In this document: positions 13,857 through 56,825 of the stretch, one piece after another
Position numbering within the stretch: position 1 is the first letter of the stretch
How the letters are laid out: every line of letters starts with the position of its first letter
From: Haliclona indistincta
Lineage: Eukaryota; Porifera; Demospongiae; Haplosclerida; Chalinidae
Length of the DNA stretch: 64,000 nt
Direction: 5' to 3'
Assembly (NCBI GenBank): GCA_964017065.1
Contig: OZ024784.1
Location: 16,039,152 to 16,103,151, forward strand
The notes under the pieces: model-generated
Told to the model about the DNA's origin: nothing
What the model saw: the letters and a program-made list of their open reading frames with translations, nothing else
The model's database searches: none
Translations under genes and position numbers: made by a program

Positions 13857-14123
13857 ACATACAATGTCAGATCATACTAGTCAGAATGCAGCGCAGATCG
13901 ACACGAGTTCAATTTTGTTTGTTGCCATCGCTTAATTAGAATGACCGTAAGTTTCCACTAACGTTATTCATTGGTTCTCGCGCGAAACATCATAAGGGTG
14001 AATGTTGTAGTTCTCGCCAGACTGACTCGCTGTGGAATTGTGACAGTGCGCAGCTGCACTGCACCAGTGCTATTTGTAAGCAATATATACTGTCTATTTG
14101 CACTGTCTAGCTAATATCTTGCT
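13857..14123. promoter_or_regulatory. Divergent promoter region, RIN-like / DH-CRIB GEF
   Basis: 267 bp between two divergent start codons, with no coding signal. It presumably drives both small-GTPase regulators. Confidence 0.5.
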
Positions 14124-17100
14124 ATGCAGACCGATCGATCGTCATCAATCATGTCAACCTGGCGACCGCATCATAGACGAACTAGCTCTATGCCCGTCAG
14201 CAACGAGCAGCTTGAAGAACTGGAAACACGCAGTGTATCAATCGAGTATGAGCATAGCCCGTCCTTCCACGAGGATGATCTAGACACTACTGCCAACAGT
14301 GGGATGTACATTGAGGAGGAAACGGAGGTGAGTTTGTCTGGCGGGTCTAGTCGCTGCATGCAGTGAGCGGCGTCTGTACTCTGTGTGTGATGTGTTTGTG
14401 CGACATACTCACGCATGAGTGGAGTTGGTATTGGTTTATTGTGGGAAACAGACATTGCGTCGTCAGCTCACGTTTACTGCTCTCAAAGATCATGTTACAC
14501 AGTTCATCAATCGACCAGATGACACAGTAATTACTGCATCTATGAGTCAGAAATGATATATGTGCTATTGATACAGATACTGCAGCTGTGTCACTCACCT
14601 ACTGATCCAGACCGATCTGTGCACATCTTTGCATCCATGCTGGACTTGAGCACGCTGTCCGATACAGGTGATCATCATTATTCATATTAACTCACTTGGG
14701 ACCAGCTGTATACTTGTTTACCAAACAAAGTGCACAGCATCGTGTCTGCACTGGGTATGTGATAATTCATTATTGCATATTTCTCCAGATGCCACATTGC
14801 GCAGACATCCTGTCTCTTCTATGAGTGCTGGGGGTAGCTCATCACTGGATCACCCATCCAGTTCATTTGAAGGGGACAATACCTGCACATTACGCAGACC
14901 TCCCAGCCTTTCAATGAGCAACACACCCACAATGACAAAGAACCTGGGGTCATCTGATTCCAGCAGCACTGAATCACTAATGCTAGAAGGTAAGGAGTCA
15001 TGTTTCACTAGATAATGGCCGCCACAGTAGATTACACTTTATACTCTGCTGACAGCTGGAAGTAGTCATGCTCTATTAAATAGCTATAATAATCCCATAA
15101 GAGTAATGGATGCAGTAGAAACAATAATTATTTGATTTCAGATCATCGAACTCTGGTGCTCAAAGAGATTGTTAACACTGAGCTGAAGTATATAACATCT
15201 CTAAATGAACTGCTTCATACGTTCATGCCAGTTTTTGAGAATATAGTCGGTCCTCGTGAACTGAGGTGAGAAGAGGAGTGAGTGGGAGAAGCGTGACAGG
15301 TGTAAATAACATACTCCTCCTCGTATTGCAGGTTAATGTTTCCTTGTCAGTTGGAACCACTCATTGAATGTCACAAAGATTTTCTGAAGCGTTTGCAGGA
15401 ACGTGTTAGCAATGGCTCCAAGTGGTTTGGAATAGTTGGTGACATATTTGGTCGATTTTTAAATGATAAACATGTGAGCTATCTCAATTTATTAACCACT
15501 TTGTGTTAACAACTGTGCTAATTGTAGTCAATTGGACTCTTACACTTTTATGGCTTGTAATCATGTTTGGTGTTAGGTAAATTTTCTTTGACTGTTATCA
15601 CTTCCTGCACACAGATTGAGGTTATTGCTCTCTACAATGCCTACATGCACGAGTTCAAAGTTGCCATGCAGACTATCGCGAAATATGAGCACACATCGCC
15701 TCCGTTCAGGAAAGCACTAAACGTAAGTACTATTGTACAAGTAATTCTATCCTAATTCAATGTCTCTGTGATGAAATTGTCTAATAATGCAATTTGGACT
15801 AGTGGGTGTTTTCTGAATTTTTCGAACATTCAGACACGCATGGATCTATATCCTTTTATGTCAGTATTGTTCAATGTGCTGTTTACTGCAGGAATGTCAA
15901 CAAAAGTCTCATGGACTGACTCTGCAAGCATTCCTTCTCACACCAGTCCAGAGATTACCAAGATACGAGCTCTTACTAAAAGTATGCATATCTTTGTACC
16001 AAAATTATGATAGTACTATTTTGCTGCTATAACTATAGGCTGTACTGAAGCACACCCCTGATCTTGAAGACCATCCTGATAGCTATGGAGTAGACCTAGT
16101 TTTGAAACAGCTCAAGACCCAGCTAGTTGGGTTAGATCACTCTATACAATCCTGCCAACTAGCTTGTTCTGTGACCAAAACAAAGACTAAATCTTATAGC
16201 AAACGGTTAGTAGCAATAACCAAGCAATCACTACAGACTACTACTCATATTCAATAGAAACTCAGCACGAAAATACAAAAGCTCAACGCGCTTCTCAAGA
16301 TTGAAACGGTTTGTTCTGATAACCCATAATGTGTTTCTAACCCTCATTATTTATTGATAGGCACCTCTCTCAGACTAATATTGATGACTACTCCTCGTCT
16401 CCTGAACAGTCTCCACACTCACTAAGAAGCAATAACTTTGTACTACACGCTCAGCATAGCGTACCGCTTATGACAGCTGCTAATCGATGTGTCTCACACG
16501 GCAACCTACTAACTGAGGTACTTGAACAAGTTCTGGACTAGATTGCTGCATAATGATGACATTTTGCAGGGAGACTCAGAGGAACTGGAATCCATCAGTC
16601 ATGCTATAAGCTGCTCTGATGTATCTGTAGTATGCGACCCAATGTTTATCGAACAAGGACAATCAAGTGCCGAGGTAACTGAAACATGCATTGAGCAAGC
16701 ATATGCAAGCAGCAATTATTCAATTAGTGTAGAGTGCGTGTGTGCAACACTTTTGCAATAATTATGTTGATTAGGTATTCCCCGTTGTACATTTATGGAT
16801 ACTGAATATTCAATACACATTAATCAAGTACGTACCCATATACCTGCAGGAAGAAGACACTAGTGCAAACAAGTCAAGTTCAATACATATCTCTCATTCC
16901 AGCAGTTCAGGTTAGCAAGCACGTGTTGTACATACCATACCATACCTACTAACCCTACACAAGCTATGCGCCATACCATACGTGATCAGACCATAGCGGA
17001 CATTATACCTCACTCTCTACAGGTTGTGAGTCAGGTGGGAGTATGTCAGTTTTTTCTCTTGATGACAGTCAAGCTTCAGTGGAGGCTGACAGGAGGAGTG

Positions 17101-17446
17101 TCACAGGAACCACATTGCCTCAGGTCTTGAGTCAGAGCAAGTTAAAGATACCGTCAATTTCAAATGCTTTAATGTCACTTCGAAAGATTGGCAGCAAGTA
17201 AGACATCAACTAACCTGGTTCACAATTTGTCAACAAATTGCACACAAATTTTTTAATTATGGTGACTTGTTATGCAGAATTAAAATAATATTAGTTCCAA
17301 TTATTGGTATTGGTGCAATCAATTATTAATGGTTTGTTTTCTATTTCAGTGCTCATAATTCAGATCAGTACAAGACACACATCAGTGATCCCATTGACTT
17401 CAGACATATTCAGCATGGCAAGAATACTAGCTTGAAATGTGCCTAA
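14124..17446 (+). CDS. Dbl-family Rho GEF with C-terminal CRIB-like motif
   Basis: Fifteen exons, all phases consistent: 14124-14327, 14452-14526, 14577-14667, 14789-14989, 15142-15265, 15332-15473, 15615-15722, 15892-15981, 16039-16205, 16258-16308, 16361-16517, 16570-16674, 16850-16910, 17023-17197 and 17350-17446. The product is about 615 aa. The DH domain spans exons 5-9: TLVLKEIVNTELKYITSLNE is helix 1, and LLTPVQRLPRYELLLKAVLK is the hallmark CR3 block. No PH domain follows; the remaining 220 residues are Ser-rich and basic. The last exon carries ISDPIDFRHIQHGKN, which fits the CRIB core I-S-x-P-x2-F-x-H-x2-H except for the missing Val before Gly. The expected activity is GDP/GTP exchange on a Rho, Rac or Cdc42 protein. 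A CRIB would let it bind GTP-Cdc42/Rac as well. The upstream Ser/Thr region (exons 1-4) has no domain I recognise. Which GTPase it acts on cannot be read from the sequence. Confidence 0.85.
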
Positions 17447-17499
17447 AACTGACTTGATGAAATTAATCTTGTTTTACATTCACTAACTGACTGATGACG

Positions 17500-18490
17500 T
17501 CATAAAGAGTTCATTTGTATATGTCAATCTTGAGCACTCTTATCACCAAGCGATCATAATGAGATACATTTTTCAATTTAAAATTAAAAAAATTATTGTG
17601 CAACTGACTTGAAAAATAACTGTTTCAGTAGGCACTTGTAAAGTGTGCAAACAAGCTCATGATGATGACCATTCTTCTGGTTTACCACTTGTATTATAAC
17701 AACTGCAGAGAGCGGCCATTTCATGTTATCATTTTCTCCCTTTAAATGAAGCAGGTACAAAAACACCCATTAGTGTTATCTTTCATACAGCGACTTTAAG
17801 ATAGAATTTGTATCCTTCTGCATAGTCCAGAGTAGAAAGGTGCACCACACTTTGTAGTTATCTTACGAAGAGGAGGGAACTTTGTTATAAAAACAAGCAG
17901 CTGTGGAATTATTATATGATAGCAAAAACAAATCAAACACTCACCAGTCATGTCACACTGAGGAATTATTGCCATTATCCTTGTCCAGCTTTGTAACTTG
18001 CTGCTCTGTGATTTTTCTCTCCACTGTCAGCTTTTCAACTGACTGTGTCATTTCAGTTCGTAATCTCTTTGTTGATCAGTGATTCTAACTGCTCTATCTT
18101 GATCAGTTGGTCAGCGGTCTTGCTGTTATGCTCAGTCTGTTGATCAGTGATCTTCCTCTCTAGATGTGCTATCTTAGTAGCATATTCATCTCTAACAGCA
18201 ATCAGCTCTTTCTTGTGACGCTCTTCCATCTTGTGCATATAGCTCTCTAGCCTCACTTCCAATGGTCGTTGTGGGCACTCCTCTAGTTCGTGCTGTGCTA
18301 ACTGGTGGCGCAGAATATGTCCAGTACAGTGATAGCGACACTGGACTACTGCCCAACCACATTCCTTCATATTGTGCTCTTCAAGACGACGCAGCTCACC
18401 TATCCATTCACAACCATCATTCTTCCTCTCGCAATAGACCTGTTTACCCAGTACTTGGCGACGAATGCTTACCAAGTACCGGCTAGCATA
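17500..18490 (-). pseudogene. Decayed tandem copy of the TRAF gene
   Basis: 18053-18466 encodes the TRAF zinc-finger and coiled-coil segment almost identically to the intact gene at 18735-20026 (QVLGKQVYCERKNDGCEWIG). The RING exon part is missing: upstream of the match the frame runs into a TGA with no ATG. The coiled coil stops early after KEITN, and the continuation (EKLTVERKITEQQV) lies in another frame. The segment at 17500-17930 is a degenerate MATH region with frame breaks. It ends in a copy of the final block of the intact gene (compare 17520-17560 with 18748-18785). Truncation plus several frameshifts make this a pseudogene, although the coil region could still be transcribed. High identity in the coil suggests a fairly recent duplication. 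Confidence 0.8.
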
Positions 18491-18734
18491 TTGTGTCCTT
18501 CAAGATCCCACCCAGCAAGTTACCAAAATACTACCTACAACCACCAATCAGGCCTCCAAATAAGTTAACTATGCCCAACATCACGACTGTTCCTCATACA
18601 TTGTACTTCAAGTGGTAAACATTGCTGTGACCGATACATTATTTGTGAGAGCAGTATTATTCTATTCCGCATGGGTTGAATACAGCTTAAAATAACACTT
18701 ATGTTATTTTCATTCACAAACTAACAGACACAAA

Positions 18735-20026
18735 CTACACAGTAAGAATGTCAATCTTGAGCACCCTTATCACCAAGCGATCATATGAGACACAGCGAAC
18801 TTCCACTTGACGACTGAATCGACTTGAAAAAATAGCCGTATCACAAGACACTCTGTCGTTATTGGAAGATGCGCAAACAAGCTCATGATGATTCTGATCA
18901 TTCTTCTGGTTTACCACCTGCAATACAACATGTGCAGAGAACGGCCATTGCAGGTTATCATCATTTTCTCCCTTTAGCAGGTACAATGACACCCCATTGG
19001 AGAAAAACAAAATACGGCCGACTTTAAGACAGAATTTGTATCCCTCCGGCCCAGAGTAGAAAGGTGTACTGCACCATGTATCATGCTTTTGCTTCAGCTT
19101 TTTGTAGTCAGTGATGATGAACTCAATGGGAGGAGCTTTGTTATAAAAACGAGCACCTGTGCTAAAAGGTGAATTCACAACAAAGAGAGACAATAACCAA
19201 ACTCACCAATCATGTCACACTGTGGAATAATTTTCTTCATTTCCTTGTCCAGCTCTATAACGTGCTGCTCAGTTAATTCTCTTTGCACAGTGAGTTTATC
19301 AATTGACTGTACCATCTGCTCCATCTTCCATCTCCACTGCTCTATCAAGATCACCTGGTCAGCGGTCTTGCTATCATACTCTTTCTGCTGATCAGTGATT
19401 CTCTTCTTTAACTGCTCTATCTTGATCAGTTGGTCAGCGGTCTTGCTGTTATGCTCAGCCTGTTGATCAGTGATCTTCCTCTCTAGCTGTTCTATCTTAG
19501 TAGCATATTCATCTCTAACAGCAATCAGCTCTTTCTTGTGACGCTCTTCCATCTTGTGCATATAGCTCTCTAGCCTCACTTCCAATGGTCGTTGTGGGCA
19601 CTCCTCTAGTTCATGCTGTGCTAACTGGCGGCGCAGAATATGTCCAGTACAGTGATAGCGACACTGGACTACTGCCCAACCACATTCCTTCATATTGTGC
19701 TCTTCAAGATGGCGCAGCTCGCCTATCCATTCACAACCATCGTCCTTCCTCTCGCAATAGACCTGTTTACCCAGTACTTGGCGACGAATGCTCGGGTCAG
19801 CGATATGTTTGTATTTGTCACTCCTGCAGTGCGGACATGGCTGGCCAGCTGCCTCAATGCGTGTTACGCAAGATTCACAGAGCTTGATTCCACAGCAATC
19901 TAGTAGATGAGGATTACGAAACGCAAGAAGACACACGGAACAGAATAGCGAGTCAGGAATAGAGTCGATAAATTCACAATCATATCCTCCACCAGCGAGT
20001 AGAGGAGCACATTCACCAGACGCCAT
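18735..20026 (-). CDS. TRAF-like RING / TRAF zinc-finger / MATH protein
   Basis: Two exons, 19207-20026 and 18735-19156, joined in phase through an acceptor that ends CACAG before GTGCTCG; about 413 aa. The start is the first ATG (MASGE...) at 20026. Residues 25-75 form a RING-type finger (CSVCLLAF, LDCCGIKLCESCVTRIE, PCPHCRS). TRAF-type zinc fingers follow (ERKDDGCEWIGEL, QCRYHCTGH, HELEECPQRP). A coiled coil comes next with an internal repeat (two KIEQL...ITDQQ...SKTADQ units). The C-terminal exon is a divergent MATH/TRAF-C domain (YNKAPPIEF, SLYLLKGENDDNLQWPF). TRAFs are cytoplasmic adaptors and E3 ligases that trimerise under TNF, IL-1 and Toll-type receptors. The gene starts 74 bp from a divergently transcribed receptor-like gene with death-domain modules, which suggests a shared pathway. 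That functional link is inference. Confidence 0.87.
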
Positions 20027-20100
20027 TGGCGTGAATCGCGTGTCTGTTTCGCACCATGCTCGCACCAAATAACCAGCCCCACCCAACTAGTCTGCATAGC
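20027..20100. promoter_or_regulatory. Divergent promoter, TRAF / 7TM death-domain protein
   Basis: At most 74-89 bp lie between the two start codons, depending on which ATG the plus gene uses (20101 or 20116). An earlier in-frame ATG at 20056 exists, but it would place a polar stretch ahead of the signal peptide. Co-expression is the obvious prediction. Confidence 0.55.
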
Positions 20101-22470
20101 ATGCATAAACAAACAATGGTGCTATCACTCTATTATCTGCCACTATTGCTGATCACAGGCGTGCAAAGCAGAGAGTGCGGAGCTAACAGCGAAGGATGCG
20201 AAACTCTATTCAGAGCCTTTGAAGACGCCTTGCTAGCAAACGGATCAAACCTCTTTAATCTGCGAAGACTATTCTATCCTCCATCATCCCAGCTCCCTGA
20301 GCTAGCGAACATCACTTACTACGTGAAACTCGGATCCGTAGCTATGAGTGGAGAGTTAAAATGTGACGAATCAGTAAATCTGTCTTATCTTGATACAGGA
20401 GTTCGCTATGGTTGGACCACAATTGGTATCTACACTTTCATCCATCCTGCTCTGTTGAATCAACTGCAAGTTCAGCTACCTTTTGCAATTATGAAAATCT
20501 ACGGGGAAAAAGACACATTGACTGGAATAGAGCCATTTCTGTGGGATGGCTTCAGCCGGCTCCCTAGTGCAGAGATATATCTAAACATTCTCAGTGCTGA
20601 AAACGTCACTTGCGCTCCTCCATTTAGCCAAGTGGATGAGATACTTAGAACAATCACATCGCTTGTGAGGAATCACGTTCTGATAAAATTAATGCTTCAA
20701 TGTCCTTTCTCTTACACAGCTGAAATACTATGCACTATCAGAAAGGAAGCTTGGTACTGGATGGCGTCTTACCGATGCCTACTATGCTCTTGATGAAGAG
20801 TCTGTCAGAGAATGTTTTAATAATGGAAATGAGACAGACTACCATTATTTTCCTAAAGAGTTAGCAATTCTCTTCTATACTATGTGTGCTGCTTGCCTAG
20901 TAGCACAGTTGCTAGTTGGATTATCAACTGGCAAATTCATCCAACAGTATATACACACATCAGTGGTTAACCACCAGTCTCTACCACTGCTGATTGGGTT
21001 TCTGTCCTGTATGTTCCTATTTTCAATCGGTATCATTACAGCAGAGATATGGTCGTATGTGACCTGGGAACAGTATTGTAATTCAAAACTAATTCCTGAG
21101 GTCAAAGTAAAATTCTACGTTTTATTCAGCTTTATTGGTGTCTCACTGTTATTTCCATTGTTTCCGATCGCTTTCATTTTGATTTGGTGCAACTGGAATA
21201 AGCATACTATTAATCACTACATGAAATTCACTCTTACAATGTATCTGATTGTGTGGTTGTGTACGTTTGTGTTTCTTTGGGTGATTGTATGCTTAACTGC
21301 TATGTTGTTAATGACACTGGCTTATCCACTATACATGTTCACACTTATATTCATACATGTAGCCTTCGTGTTTTTAGTCACTGTAACATTTGGTGTAGCA
21401 ATATCTCAGATTGTTTCTGTAATGGATCGTAGACCAGGATACAAGCGCTATATATTCCTGGTCATTGTGTTGGGAGTCACCATTGCTATATTATCCTGTG
21501 CACTGTATTTTGGTGTTTTATTCTGGTATAAATTAACAATCGTACAAGGATTATCTAATGTGGAGAGAGCTTCTGCTATAGTGGTCTTGGTTCCATCACT
21601 GGTGCTAGCCTTGTTTGGACGCCTTGTACAACGAAGATTTTTTGCTGACACAGGTAAGTGCACATACATATTCCACATCACAGATAGTGCATCACCATTC
21701 TCACCACATCACAATCCTTCTCACTCAGAACCATCTAGTCCTGCCGTGAGAAGAATAGTGAATGAGTTGGTCACACTAAACTTTAACATTGTAAAGAGAA
21801 GACAACTTAGTGAATTACTTGACATACCAATGAAAGTTCGTGAGACAATTGAATTAGAAGCATCAGGAAAAAATGAAAAGAGACTTGCTTTGACAAAAAT
21901 AATCAGTCATTGGCTAAATAAAACTAAGAATGCTTCATTACAAAAACTGGCAGACGTGCTCCTTATGCTCAAAATGTGTCCCGAAAAATTCAAAAGAGCT
22001 GGAATGTCTGAATCAGAATTTGAGGAATTTGGAATCAGAAAGTCTGAAAGAATCAGGATGTTAATTGGAGACAATTACCTAAAGACACATGATGTTGAGG
22101 CGATCCTGGAAGCAATCAGTGATTCAGCAGTTATACCAGATTCAAAAAGGCTAGCAAAGGAGTTCAATATGTTGCACTGTCCTCCTCGTAAGAGCAATGA
22201 CAGCCTTGAGTCAAGGTTGCGATGGACTTTAGAGACTTGGATTGGTCACAGCTTTGGTTATGTGACATGGAATCATCTCATTGAACACATGAATAACGTC
22301 GATGCTATTGCAGCAGATAAGATCAAATCACTCATATCCGGACACCCTGGCTTTGCAGGTAAATGCATGCTATACATGCAGGTACATGCATGATTCATTC
22401 TTTTTCCGCAGCTCTTCGCAAGGTTTGGAGTAGTGCTCATGTAAAAGCCACAACAGATGAATTGTATTAG
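20101..22470 (+). CDS. Receptor-like protein: ectodomain, about 7 TM, two death-domain-like modules
   Basis: Exons 20101-20664, 20720-22358 and 22412-22470, about 750 aa. The ATG at 20116 gives a clean signal peptide (MVLSLYYLPLLLITGVQS). Next is a Cys-containing ectodomain of about 200 aa (ETLFRAFEDALLANGSNLF, RRLFYPPSSQ). About seven hydrophobic segments lie between 20860 and 21640, with short polar loops. The roughly 260-residue cytoplasmic part holds a death-domain-like six-helix pattern at about 21740-21990 (LLDIPMKVRETIE, ISHWLNKTKNASLQKLADVL). A second related module is at about 22090-22420 (RLAKEFNMLHCPPR, LETWIGHSFGYVTWNHLIEH). An odd number of membrane passes puts the death folds in the cytosol, as needed for adaptor recruitment. 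A possible 30-bp intron at 21654-21683 is read through here because it is in frame and unusually short. I know of no named family with this full layout; I believe similar ectodomains occur in sponge-specific gene families. Function is unknown; signalling is inferred. Confidence 0.75.
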
Positions 22471-22564
22471 CATTGCATAATCATTGTATTAATTTTTTGA
22501 TCAACAATAAAAATTTTTTACTGACACTTAATTTTTGCATGACTTGTGAAAAATTACTGTTGCT

Positions 22565-24709
22565 ATGGTAACAAAGGTAGTTCAACAAAAAGAAATGGCT
22601 ACCGATAATGAACCTGTCGCTCAACTGGAGGACAAAGAGGAGCGCATGGCCCTCAGGCGCAAGCGAGTGGGTGCTAAAATTGAAGAAATAAGGCGCCAAA
22701 CTCTCGGTATAAAACCAAAGACACCCGTGAAAGAAGACAGCGACCCAGAAAAGAAGAGAACAAGTTCCATACAGATCGTGAAGAGCAAGCAGCGGCTAGA
22801 GAAGCTGGCGACAGATGGAACCCAGCTAGTCACTAATGTAGCTGTTGCAGTAGACGCTAGAGAAGTTGGGCGTCGACAGGAAGAAGACGAAGGAGGCAAG
22901 GCTCGCCAAGAGAAGCTCGAGGCCGAAAAAAACGCAGGCGAAGAACGATTTCAAGAGATTATACGAAAATGGAGTCAAACCAGCAAGAAAAAAGTTCCAC
23001 AAGAGTTGCAAGATCTACTACAACAGCAAAAGGAAGCCTGCGACGAGATGATACAAGAGAAGGAGAAGCTAATAACTGAGTTCCAGGAGGAGCTAAAGGC
23101 AAAAGACGAGCAGTACGTGAAACACTTGAAGATGCAAGCTGAAGACATTGATTTGCTGGTAGAACGAATGGAAGAACAAGCTAGAGCTGTAGTAAAGGCC
23201 TTCAGAGAAGAGCTTGAACAAATAGAGAACACATTCTCATTGGAGCGACGAGATCTCACACTCAGTCAGCATGACAAGTACATGAAAATGAAGGAAGACA
23301 AGGAGAAGGAGTACATGCAAAGAAGAGAGGAGCGTCTGGAAGAGAATGAGGCCAAGTTACAACATCTGAGGATTAGAAATGCTGAGCAGCTGAATAAAAA
23401 CAAGATTGAATTGGAGATGGACATACAACACTTACAGCAACAGATACAGCAAATGAAGGCTACATTTCAGCTGAATGCAGAGAAATTGGAGTATAATTTC
23501 CAGGTACTCAAGAAGAGGGATGAAGAAAACACTGTAACCATCAGCCAGCAAAAACGAAAGCTCACTCGGCAGCAAGACACGTTGAACAATCTCAAAGCAA
23601 AGTTGGCAAAGCAAGAGAAAGGTTTCAAGAGTGAGCAGGAGACGTTGCTGTCAGACTATAGGAAGAGTGTGGATCAGTATCAAGAGCTTCAAAAGAAAGT
23701 GCAACACTTTCAGCTTGTAGATGCCAAACGGTTCTATGACATCTGGAAAATGAATGAAGAGAAGGTTCGTAGGCTATCCGAGGCTGTTGGTAATGTAGAT
23801 GAGGTAGTCTTCAGGCATCAGTTGGGACTAAACTGGGAGCCACCTACTCTAGTGGACAGCCCACTGCAGCCATTGCTGACCAAAGTAGAGAATAATGTCA
23901 GTCAAGCCACTATGTATGCCTCACAAATTCTGTCTGAGGCTGGTGACGAGAGCGAGAAGCCAGCTGACGATCAAGCTACTGTAATCACAGTATCAACTGA
24001 GGCTACTTTCTTGCCGTCACTCATCAAACAGGTTCTTGAGTTGGTAGCTGAGGAATCTAGCTTTTTGATTGAGGCCAAACTTTCTCGTCTGTTGGCCCCA
24101 CTAGAGAAGGAAGAGCAGATGCTGATGAAGCTCGACTCAATCTTCAAAGCTCTTGGAATTGAGACTGAGAATGATGTTCATGCTCTTATCCGTTTCTTTG
24201 TCAAGGAGAGTCCATTAAAAGAAGAGACGTCAACTGACACTCAGTCTAGACTAGAGTCAACCATGTCCACTGAACCGTCAACACAAGTTCCACTTGCCTC
24301 ATATCATCTCATCCACCCTAATGAGGTACCCAATGCACTCAGGGGGTTTACAGAGAGTAGACATGCCAATTCTGACTCAAGTTTTGCATCTTCACGAGCA
24401 AAGATCCTTGGTCTACACGGAAATGGTGTTGCTCCAGAATTACTGGACGGGTCATTCTGGCAGAAAATGTCTGGAACATTAGAGACTAGTCACAGAAGAA
24501 TATGGACTGCTCTATTGGATGGTCTAGACAAGTACCACACTGTGGTGAACTCTCGAACCAAGGTAATAGATGAAAGAGATGGTTTGAAGCAACAAAACAC
24601 AGAACTACGACTCCTGTTGCACCAGTACATGCACAGTAAAGTGAACCATGAACTAGAAATACCCCCAGCACTGGCTATGCCCACTACAGTAGAGCATACA
24701 CTAGCATAA
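22565..24709 (+). CDS. DRC1: Dynein regulatory complex subunit 1
   Basis: A single open frame of 714 aa without introns. It starts at 22565 (MVTKVVQQKEMATDNEPV) and ends in TAA. Long coiled coils cover most of the protein. Family landmarks are seen in order: TQLVTNVAVAVDAREVGRR, VPQELQDLLQQQKEACDEM, LLVERMEEQARAV, EKLEYNFQVLKKRDEEN, FYDIWKMNEEKVRRL, IHPNEVP and the C-terminal block EKYHTVVNSRTK-like. DRC1 is a core part of the nexin-dynein regulatory complex that links outer doublets and tunes ciliary beating. Sponges need this in choanocytes and larval cilia. The length matches vertebrate DRC1 (about 740 aa). Lack of introns contrasts with its neighbours, but such genes occur elsewhere in the window. 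An inner ATG (MATDNEP) is a possible alternative start. Confidence 0.93.
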   Translation: MVTKVVQQKEMATDNEPVAQLEDKEERMALRRKRVGAKIEEIRRQTLGIKPKTPVKEDSDPEKKRTSSIQIVKSKQRLEKLATDGTQLVTNVAVAVDAREVGRRQEEDEGGKARQEKLEAEKNAGEERFQEIIRKWSQTSKKKVPQELQDLLQQQKEACDEMIQEKEKLITEFQEELKAKDEQYVKHLKMQAEDIDLLVERMEEQARAVVKAFREELEQIENTFSLERRDLTLSQHDKYMKMKEDKEKEYMQRREERLEENEAKLQHLRIRNAEQLNKNKIELEMDIQHLQQQIQQMKATFQLNAEKLEYNFQVLKKRDEENTVTISQQKRKLTRQQDTLNNLKAKLAKQEKGFKSEQETLLSDYRKSVDQYQELQKKVQHFQLVDAKRFYDIWKMNEEKVRRLSEAVGNVDEVVFRHQLGLNWEPPTLVDSPLQPLLTKVENNVSQATMYASQILSEAGDESEKPADDQATVITVSTEATFLPSLIKQVLELVAEESSFLIEAKLSRLLAPLEKEEQMLMKLDSIFKALGIETENDVHALIRFFVKESPLKEETSTDTQSRLESTMSTEPSTQVPLASYHLIHPNEVPNALRGFTESRHANSDSSFASSRAKILGLHGNGVAPELLDGSFWQKMSGTLETSHRRIWTALLDGLDKYHTVVNSRTKVIDERDGLKQQNTELRLLLHQYMHSKVNHELEIPPALAMPTTVEHTLA

Positions 24710-55599: not shown

Positions 55600-56598
55600 T
55601 CATTCAGTTTTTTGATTCTGATGTCTCCTTTTACCCGAAGGTGTTAGTTGTAGACCAAACCAAGCCACAATCAATATACATGCTAACATAGTTCCTACTA
55701 CCCAACCCAATGATGAAGTGAACGTAATTTTATCCAATGAGAGGATCGATTCTCTCTCTCTTAAATCAATGATGACGGCCTTCAAATGACAGAGTGTCCC
55801 CATAGTGGTCATTACATGCACCCAGTGGTGACTGTGACCAATGTAGTCAAACATGCCTGGACGCCATCGTTCAGGGATACGCCCTGCATTGAACACAGCC
55901 GACAACAGGTAAAACAGCCATGTCAGCATAGTATACTGAAGTGCATTAGAGCACTCCTGCCCCATAGTGTAACACTTCACTGTACGTTCTCCCGAGGGTA
56001 AGTGATCGATTGCGTATGCACATGCGAATGCTACTGTTCTTATGACATACTTTTGAGCATCCCAACGATGTCTGCTTGCACAAGTGATGAAACACACTGA
56101 ACACGATGTGAATGCAGCTAGCGGCATGAAGATTTCTGGAACTGATACAAAGTTGAACAGTAGAATTCCACCGTGGACTGGTCTCTGGTAGTAGAACACG
56201 GAGCATGCCCCTCCAATACCGAAAACGGAAATTGCTGCATAGTCCAGAAAGAAACAAACATGTCTAATCCGTGGAGACATGCAGTTAAACATGTGGGCTA
56301 GACTACTGAACAGCAGATAAAGACATATGGAGGATTCTACGGCAAGAAGCGGGTAGTAGCGTGGTGGTATGGCGCCTGGAGGCAGCAACGAGGAGGGAAA
56401 CGTGTTTATCGAATAGGCAACGCATCCAAGGAAAGGAATGAAGTGTGTCCAGAAATTCACTGTCTCGTTGTTCCATCGAGCGACACTGATGAGAGCGGTA
56501 GAGAACGTGGAGTGTGGCCGTCGATATCCACCGCGCACATATCGCTCCTGATACTGAGCAGGGACGTCACTGACAGCAAGACAGCCGGACGAAGCCAT
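55600..56598 (-). CDS. PAQR family receptor (membrane progestin receptor-like)
   Basis: A single open frame of 332 aa without introns, ATG at 56598. PAQR/hemolysin-III landmarks: RWNNETVNFWTHFIPF at the first membrane segment, SSLAHMF with the conserved Ser/His, FLDYAA with the conserved Asp, and GHSHHWVHV with the C-terminal zinc-binding histidines. Seven to eight membrane segments are visible. The pattern is of the mPR/PAQR5-9 side rather than adiponectin receptors (short N-terminus, FWTHFIP). Relatives bind steroids or ceramide and may act as zinc hydrolases. The steroid preference cannot be predicted. A Lys/Arg-rich tail ends the protein. Confidence 0.93.
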   Translation of the reverse strand: MASSGCLAVSDVPAQYQERYVRGGYRRPHSTFSTALISVARWNNETVNFWTHFIPFLGCVAYSINTFPSSLLPPGAIPPRYYPLLAVESSICLYLLFSSLAHMFNCMSPRIRHVCFFLDYAAISVFGIGGACSVFYYQRPVHGGILLFNFVSVPEIFMPLAAFTSCSVCFITCASRHRWDAQKYVIRTVAFACAYAIDHLPSGERTVKCYTMGQECSNALQYTMLTWLFYLLSAVFNAGRIPERWRPGMFDYIGHSHHWVHVMTTMGTLCHLKAVIIDLRERESILSLDKITFTSSLGWVVGTMLACILIVAWFGLQLTPSGKRRHQNQKTE

Positions 56599-56825
56599 TG
56601 GCTATGTAGCTGCACTGTTCGAAACACCTACTTACTGACGTGTGAACGAGCCACTCCTACCTTAGCTCCGCCTGTGGAATTTTAACCGCAGATGGCCCAT
56701 AAATAATTTTCATAATGATTGATTACACACGATCAAGGAAAATAATACAAGGAATAAATAAAATAATACAATGAATAAATAAAATAATACAATGAATAAA
56801 TAGAAATGACAAATTGTTGCTAAAC

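Follow-up and report, generated by a model that had tools for sequence, protein, structure and literature searches.

A plus-strand gene in the genome of the sponge Haliclona indistincta probably encodes one of a family of seven-pass cell-surface receptors that carry a cytosolic death-domain tail and would signal by seeding assemblies from that tail. The gene lies in a 64,000-nucleotide stretch of contig OZ024784.1 (assembly GCA_964017065.1, positions 16,039,152 to 16,103,151 of the forward strand; G000:C2:16039152-16103151 in the numbering used here), hereafter called the window, and relatives were sought throughout the genome (144 Mb, 46 contigs). The parts computed are a signal peptide, a sequon-bearing ectodomain, seven predicted transmembrane (TM) segments and a tail in which a single death domain is usually followed by another helical module. 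The arrangement is genuine, recurs in eight loci and has no earlier description within the scope of the searches: in agreement with the initial annotation, which knew of no named receptor family with this order, neither such a family nor any report of a seven-pass protein with a death domain was found among the open-licence PMC papers listed (titles and abstract openings). Of the structure first proposed (signal peptide, ectodomain, seven membrane segments and two death-domain modules), the order and the first module are borne out, while the second module is a probable death fold only.

The receptor gene is modelled as four exons encoding 728 residues, rather than the product of about 750 residues originally put forward, with joins set by splice consensus and by comparison with relatives. 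Its exons and tail modules, with the alignments (A1 to A3) in which they are represented, are:
20101..20664, plus strand, receptor exon 1: codes for the signal peptide (20101-20169) and the larger part of the ectodomain (residues 24-188); aligned with 11 relatives (A3)
20720..21653, plus strand, receptor exon 2: remainder of the ectodomain, then the seven TM segments (20861-21628); aligned with 11 relatives (A2)
21729..22358, plus strand, receptor exon 3: both tail modules; seven tails aligned (A1)
21737..22075, plus strand, tail module 1: death domain
22076..22342, plus strand, tail module 2: probable atypical death-fold module
22412..22470, plus strand, receptor exon 4: final residues with the stop codon; splice sites from consensus only

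Intron 1 falls at the same place in all 12 loci compared, the window gene included, with the GT and the AG each kept in 12 of 12. It is very improbable that the gene is an artefact in which a seven-transmembrane (7TM) gene and a separate death-domain gene have been wrongly joined. The exon joins do rest on consensus, and the donor after exon 2 differs from the shared G/GT in two of the eight death-tail members; against this, a 7TM exon is followed by a death exon on the same strand in eight loci, the G/GT donor is common to the other six members, and the window frame stays open across intron 2 (open reading frame 20693-22393). Comparison of the window gene with a paralogue on contig C5 gave dN/dS ratios of 0.19 for the ectodomain, 0.25 for the 7TM part and 0.34 for the tail, so all three parts look constrained. 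The recurrence of the same order in eight loci, combined with the constraint on the tail, argues that the architecture is more than a product of chance.

A genome search with the 728-residue product yielded 30 exon matches. Among them are the full-length C5 paralogue (exon identities of 64, 68 and 75%), five clustered copies on C3, one copy each on C2 (10.0 Mb) and C4, and a more distant group spread over C6, C8 and C2, which a search with one distant 7TM part filled in (16 matches). The family comprises 20 loci, the window gene included, eight of which carry a death exon. This count omits a few further fragments from the distant-7TM search, and it includes two loci excluded from the alignments, namely L019 on C3 (frame breaks) and L034 on C2 at 2.4 Mb (7TM part over two frames). 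Mean column identity is 48% for A3 (12 ectodomain exons), 38% for A2 (12 7TM exons) and 53% for A1 (seven tail exons). In a tree of 12 combined ectodomain and 7TM rows, in which long branches were flagged and the root serves for drawing only, the eight death-tail members (window, C5, four on C3, C2 at 10.0 Mb, and C4) stand apart from four tail-less ones with 100/100 support. With L019, for which no tail was seen within the stretch examined, the death-tail group numbers nine loci, and in eight of them the death exon follows the 7TM exon on the same strand. Both tail modules are present in seven members; the C4 member has module 1 only, then a stop. The second group comprises 11 loci, including four intact frames (L023, L027, L032 and L035) that end soon after TM7.

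Two local arrangements were observed within this family. Five members stand in tandem on C3 (G000:C3:9419466-9447668), one of them with frame breaks, and this cluster points to a recent local expansion. On C2, a plus-strand frame (L040:2422-3012; G000:C2 ~6.0256-6.0262 Mb) is placed tail to tail with a family member that lacks the death tail and, given a weak TIR_2 match (E 0.056), is perhaps a SEFIR/TIR-type gene.

In a set of 5.8 billion proteins, the full receptor retrieved, among the matches listed, only its own frame; the 7TM alignment retrieved at least eight proteins, one being the window's own, and the tail alignment 14. Several of these are copies of loci already present in the genome. 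Five others (P0002, P0005, P0012, P0014 and P0015) are 74-82% identical to the window gene and absent from the receptor matches in its own genome. The longest contig given for P0002 (7TM) and for P0015 (tail) has the same length, 96,410 bases, as expected if a 7TM part stands beside a tail there as well.

The topology predicted for the product is that of a receptor with an external N-terminus and an internal C-terminus. The N-terminus is hydrophobic at residues 5-23 (GES scale), and seven hydrophobic segments follow between residues 236 and 491 on both the KD and GES scales. Among the 11 relatives, L038 has eight segments on either scale; GES finds seven in each of the other 10, and KD finds six in four relatives that lack the tail. 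N-glycosylation sequons number five in residues 24-235, none in residues 236-505 and three in the tail. Loops 1, 3 and 5 and the tail carry net charges of +1, +2, +3 and +1 in 25-residue counts, compared with -5, +1, 0 and +1 on the opposite side. Hydropathy, sequon positions and loop charges together lead to the prediction that the tail is cytosolic. The initial annotation had considered that an even number of segments might place the modules outside the cytosol; with seven segments predicted, this does not apply. A structure model built without an alignment (mean pLDDT 44.7) was used solely for its seven long helices.

Structural modelling identifies tail module 1 as a death domain. It was matched by structure to the six-helix death fold, and residues 341-540 of the AlphaFold model have pLDDT values of 73-92 in 19 of 20 ten-residue blocks, the remaining block standing at 58. 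For module 1, this match runs counter to the concern that the modules might not be death folds at all. Sequence profiles give fainter signals: Pfam Death (PF00531) matches five of the seven tails below its cut-off (best E 0.0011), including the window tail (E 0.025; 15.1 bits, compared with a cut-off of 22.6). Pfam Death_3 (PF21733) had no match across the genome, a result made uninformative by the controls likewise having none, and sequence searches of PDB with the tail alone and with profile A1 returned chance-level rows (best E 0.01 and 0.1, respectively) and no death domain. In profile comparisons against the death profile, 20 column-shuffled controls were used; two with a spurious one-column score of 99.6% were excluded, and the remaining 18 gave P 0.064 or worse. 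The ectodomain and 7TM controls gave P 0.23 and P 0.65. Modules 1 and 2 compared with each other gave P 0.56, so nothing indicates that module 2 arose by duplication of module 1.

Several results weigh against reading this gene as a seven-pass receptor that signals through a death-domain tail. Neither tail module reaches a Pfam cut-off; Foldseek on its own gave no match at E 0.001 or better, and module 2, probable as a death fold, is insecure as one. Module 1 of the C4 member was missed by a profile of this genome's own Death domains (E 7.2) and recovered at 3e-21 by the receptor family's own profile; the former was built from 30 domains, and it is narrow because 19 of them come from one array on C8. 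None of 12 family members matches a G-protein-coupled receptor (GPCR) family in Pfam up to E 1, and the AlphaFold model of the 7TM part is poor (pLDDT blocks of 41-68), so the label 'receptor' rests on topology and ectodomain. In addition, 11 of the 20 loci seem to be without a death tail, as tested in four of the 11, where profiles of the family's own tail run over 3.0-3.5 kb downstream gave a best E of 0.48; the tail would thus be dispensable for the role of the shared part. The structure search also gave no GPCR rows above noise, a result that does not count against a GPCR fold.

Searches with the membrane part bear on a different interpretation, under which the 7TM part would work as a transporter, a channel or a surface protein of scavenger type, with the death domain as a scaffold or localisation module, as in ankyrins. 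Across the 12 members, the 7TM part drew five weak Pfam families, each in one member (best E 0.016) and none a receptor family, and PDB sequence-profile searches with A2 (7TM) and A3 (ectodomain) found nothing below E 0.8. The single transporter or channel profile among the matches is at chance level and no other such family turns up, while the conserved, sequon-bearing ectodomain behind a signal peptide, together with seven segments, suits a receptor better. This interpretation is therefore judged unlikely.

From the parts of the preferred seven-pass receptor with a death-domain tail, we infer tail-nucleated death-fold signalling. An extracellular cue would bind the ectodomain and change or cluster the 7TM part; the tail death domain would then recruit cytosolic partners (death-domain adaptors, kinases or caspases) into a homotypic death-fold assembly that it seeds, and this assembly could switch on an NF-kB/JNK-type or cell-death output. 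Such a protein would be a death receptor on a seven-pass body, with its main output through the tail and not through a G protein. It is conceivable, and is put forward tentatively, that these proteins form a new class of seven-pass death receptor, in which an orphan 7TM body senses a cue and seeds a death-domain signalosome, driving apoptosis or NF-kB without needing a G protein, with the tail-less sisters acting as decoys or serving another output.

TNF-receptor-type death receptors (TNFR1, Fas and p75NTR) cross the membrane once and bear cysteine-rich repeats. The present receptor differs in its seven predicted crossings and usually two tail modules, and its ectodomain matches no TNFR-type family: the window ectodomain has no Pfam match at E 10, and the 12 members together draw only two chance-level families, tRNA_synthFbeta (four of 12, best E 0.0085) and DUF7695 (one), neither a receptor family. 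A likeness is seen in the GPCR-TK and GPCR-TKL proteins of choanoflagellates and sponges, in which a seven-pass body is described with a signalling domain on the C-terminal tail, tyrosine-kinase fusions being reported in sponges (PMC12716839). By description, those tails are kinases and the present one is a death tail; no kinase match was found in the window receptor with Pfam, and the word 'death' does not occur in the main text of that report. Given the sponge fusions described there, the combination of a signalling tail and a seven-pass body is already a known theme, and the death tail is what would be new. Sponges and other marine animals are likewise on record as reusing death folds, in a lineage-specific way, in immune-type proteins, some of which have an ectodomain and a membrane helix; examples are the Death-like/TRADD-N expansions in Amphimedon and the bivalve ectodomain-TM-DED-TRADD-N proteins (PMC8195603). 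Unlike the present family, the bivalve proteins have, as described, a single membrane helix together with a TRADD-N domain, and '7TM' is absent from the main text of that source. The GPCR repertoire of Amphimedon resembles the present family in consisting of seven-pass receptors of a demosponge, and its main text does not contain the word 'death' (PMC4302439). Since no Pfam 7TM family matches, a profile-based GPCR survey would probably miss the present family. A study of two sponges lists DEATH-domain genes and a TRAF2 among those changing under microbial challenge (PMC6208332); it does not concern this gene, and an immune role would be compatible with it.

Receptors with death domains and receptors with seven passes are usually regarded as distinct ways of signalling into the cell. 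If the reading of a death-domain-tailed seven-pass receptor is true, it would represent a third way of wiring a surface sensor to cell death or inflammation, in an early-branching animal, and would help to explain what the large death-domain and TRAF gene sets of sponges respond to. The tail-bearing and tail-less sister groups provide a built-in comparison for what the death tail adds.

The minus-strand neighbour of the receptor gene is a TRAF gene of two exons encoding 413 residues, and the RING/zinc-finger/MATH protein first noted on this strand is present:
18735..19156, minus strand, TRAF exon 2: MATH domain
19207..20026, minus strand, TRAF exon 1: RING, TRAF zinc finger and coiled coil (by eye)
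20027..20100, no strand: gap of 74 bp between the two start codons, a possible shared promoter
Its MATH domain (Pfam TRAF/meprin) exceeds the cut-off (E 1.1e-13), and the RING (E 1.5e-5; 25.1 bits) and zf-TRAF (E 0.0047; 18 bits) fall below theirs, which are 27 bits each. The domain order is that standard for the TRAF adaptor family (RING, TRAF zinc finger, coiled coil by eye, MATH); it differs from that family in the sub-cut-off RING and zinc finger, and it is one of a large TRAF-like set.

This arrangement had suggested a receptor-adaptor unit made up of the 7TM death protein and the TRAF, co-expressed from one bidirectional promoter, which now appears quite improbable. The start codons are indeed close, 74 bp apart where 90 bp had been allowed, and TNFR1-TRADD-TRAF2 signalling, as described in PMC8195603, brings death domains together with the MATH domains of TRAFs. 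The genome holds at least 149 TRAF-like matches at no fewer than 95 loci after merging at 1.5 kb (lower bounds, as 101 of 570 candidates were scored); by that density, the chance of a TRAF-like locus near any of 20 genes is ~3% within 1 kb and 12% within 5 kb. Yet the pair is seen at one of 20 family loci: for the 19 others, the nearest TRAF-like match among those listed is 367 kb away, tblastn of the TRAF against 29 family loci (L011-L039, mostly with 1.5-kb flanks) found only L012, the window itself, and tblastn in 9 kb around the C5 paralogue (L039) found no match. Nor were common TRAF-binding motifs found in the window receptor tail. A DRC1-like gene on the other side (window 22550-24709, plus strand; NYD-SP28 E 4e-27, sperm-tail C-terminal domain E 4.4e-19) has its first ATGs at 22565 and 22595, 94 and 124 bp past the receptor stop, so the 74-bp gap is not special here. 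The proposed signalling unit thus finds no support beyond a single locus, and the TRAF next to the receptor most likely lies there incidentally, as one member of a large TRAF set. Chance pairing is plausible but not proved, the ~3% figure being the one number that leans against pure chance, and co-expression through the 74-bp gap is possible. Just downstream of the TRAF (window 17796-18499, minus strand) lies a partial second copy, 91% identical over residues 78-212 and with no RING frame seen, which looks like a decaying local duplicate; its position next to the gene suggests that TRAF pieces duplicate locally.

Besides TRAF-like genes, the genome is rich in death-domain genes. A dense array of Death-profile matches, mostly in open frames of ~890 residues, occupies G000:C8:11.89-12.24 Mb. 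Three of its genes (L001, L005 and L007) have, by eye, a death domain followed by a P-loop part that looks NACHT-like. Within the window, the frames of an apparent multi-exon gene at 14100-17450 (plus strand) contain TPVQRLPRYELLLK, which resembles the RhoGEF (DH) signature. At 55600-56601 (minus strand), the window encodes an HlyIII/PAQR-type membrane protein (Pfam E 2.9e-39).
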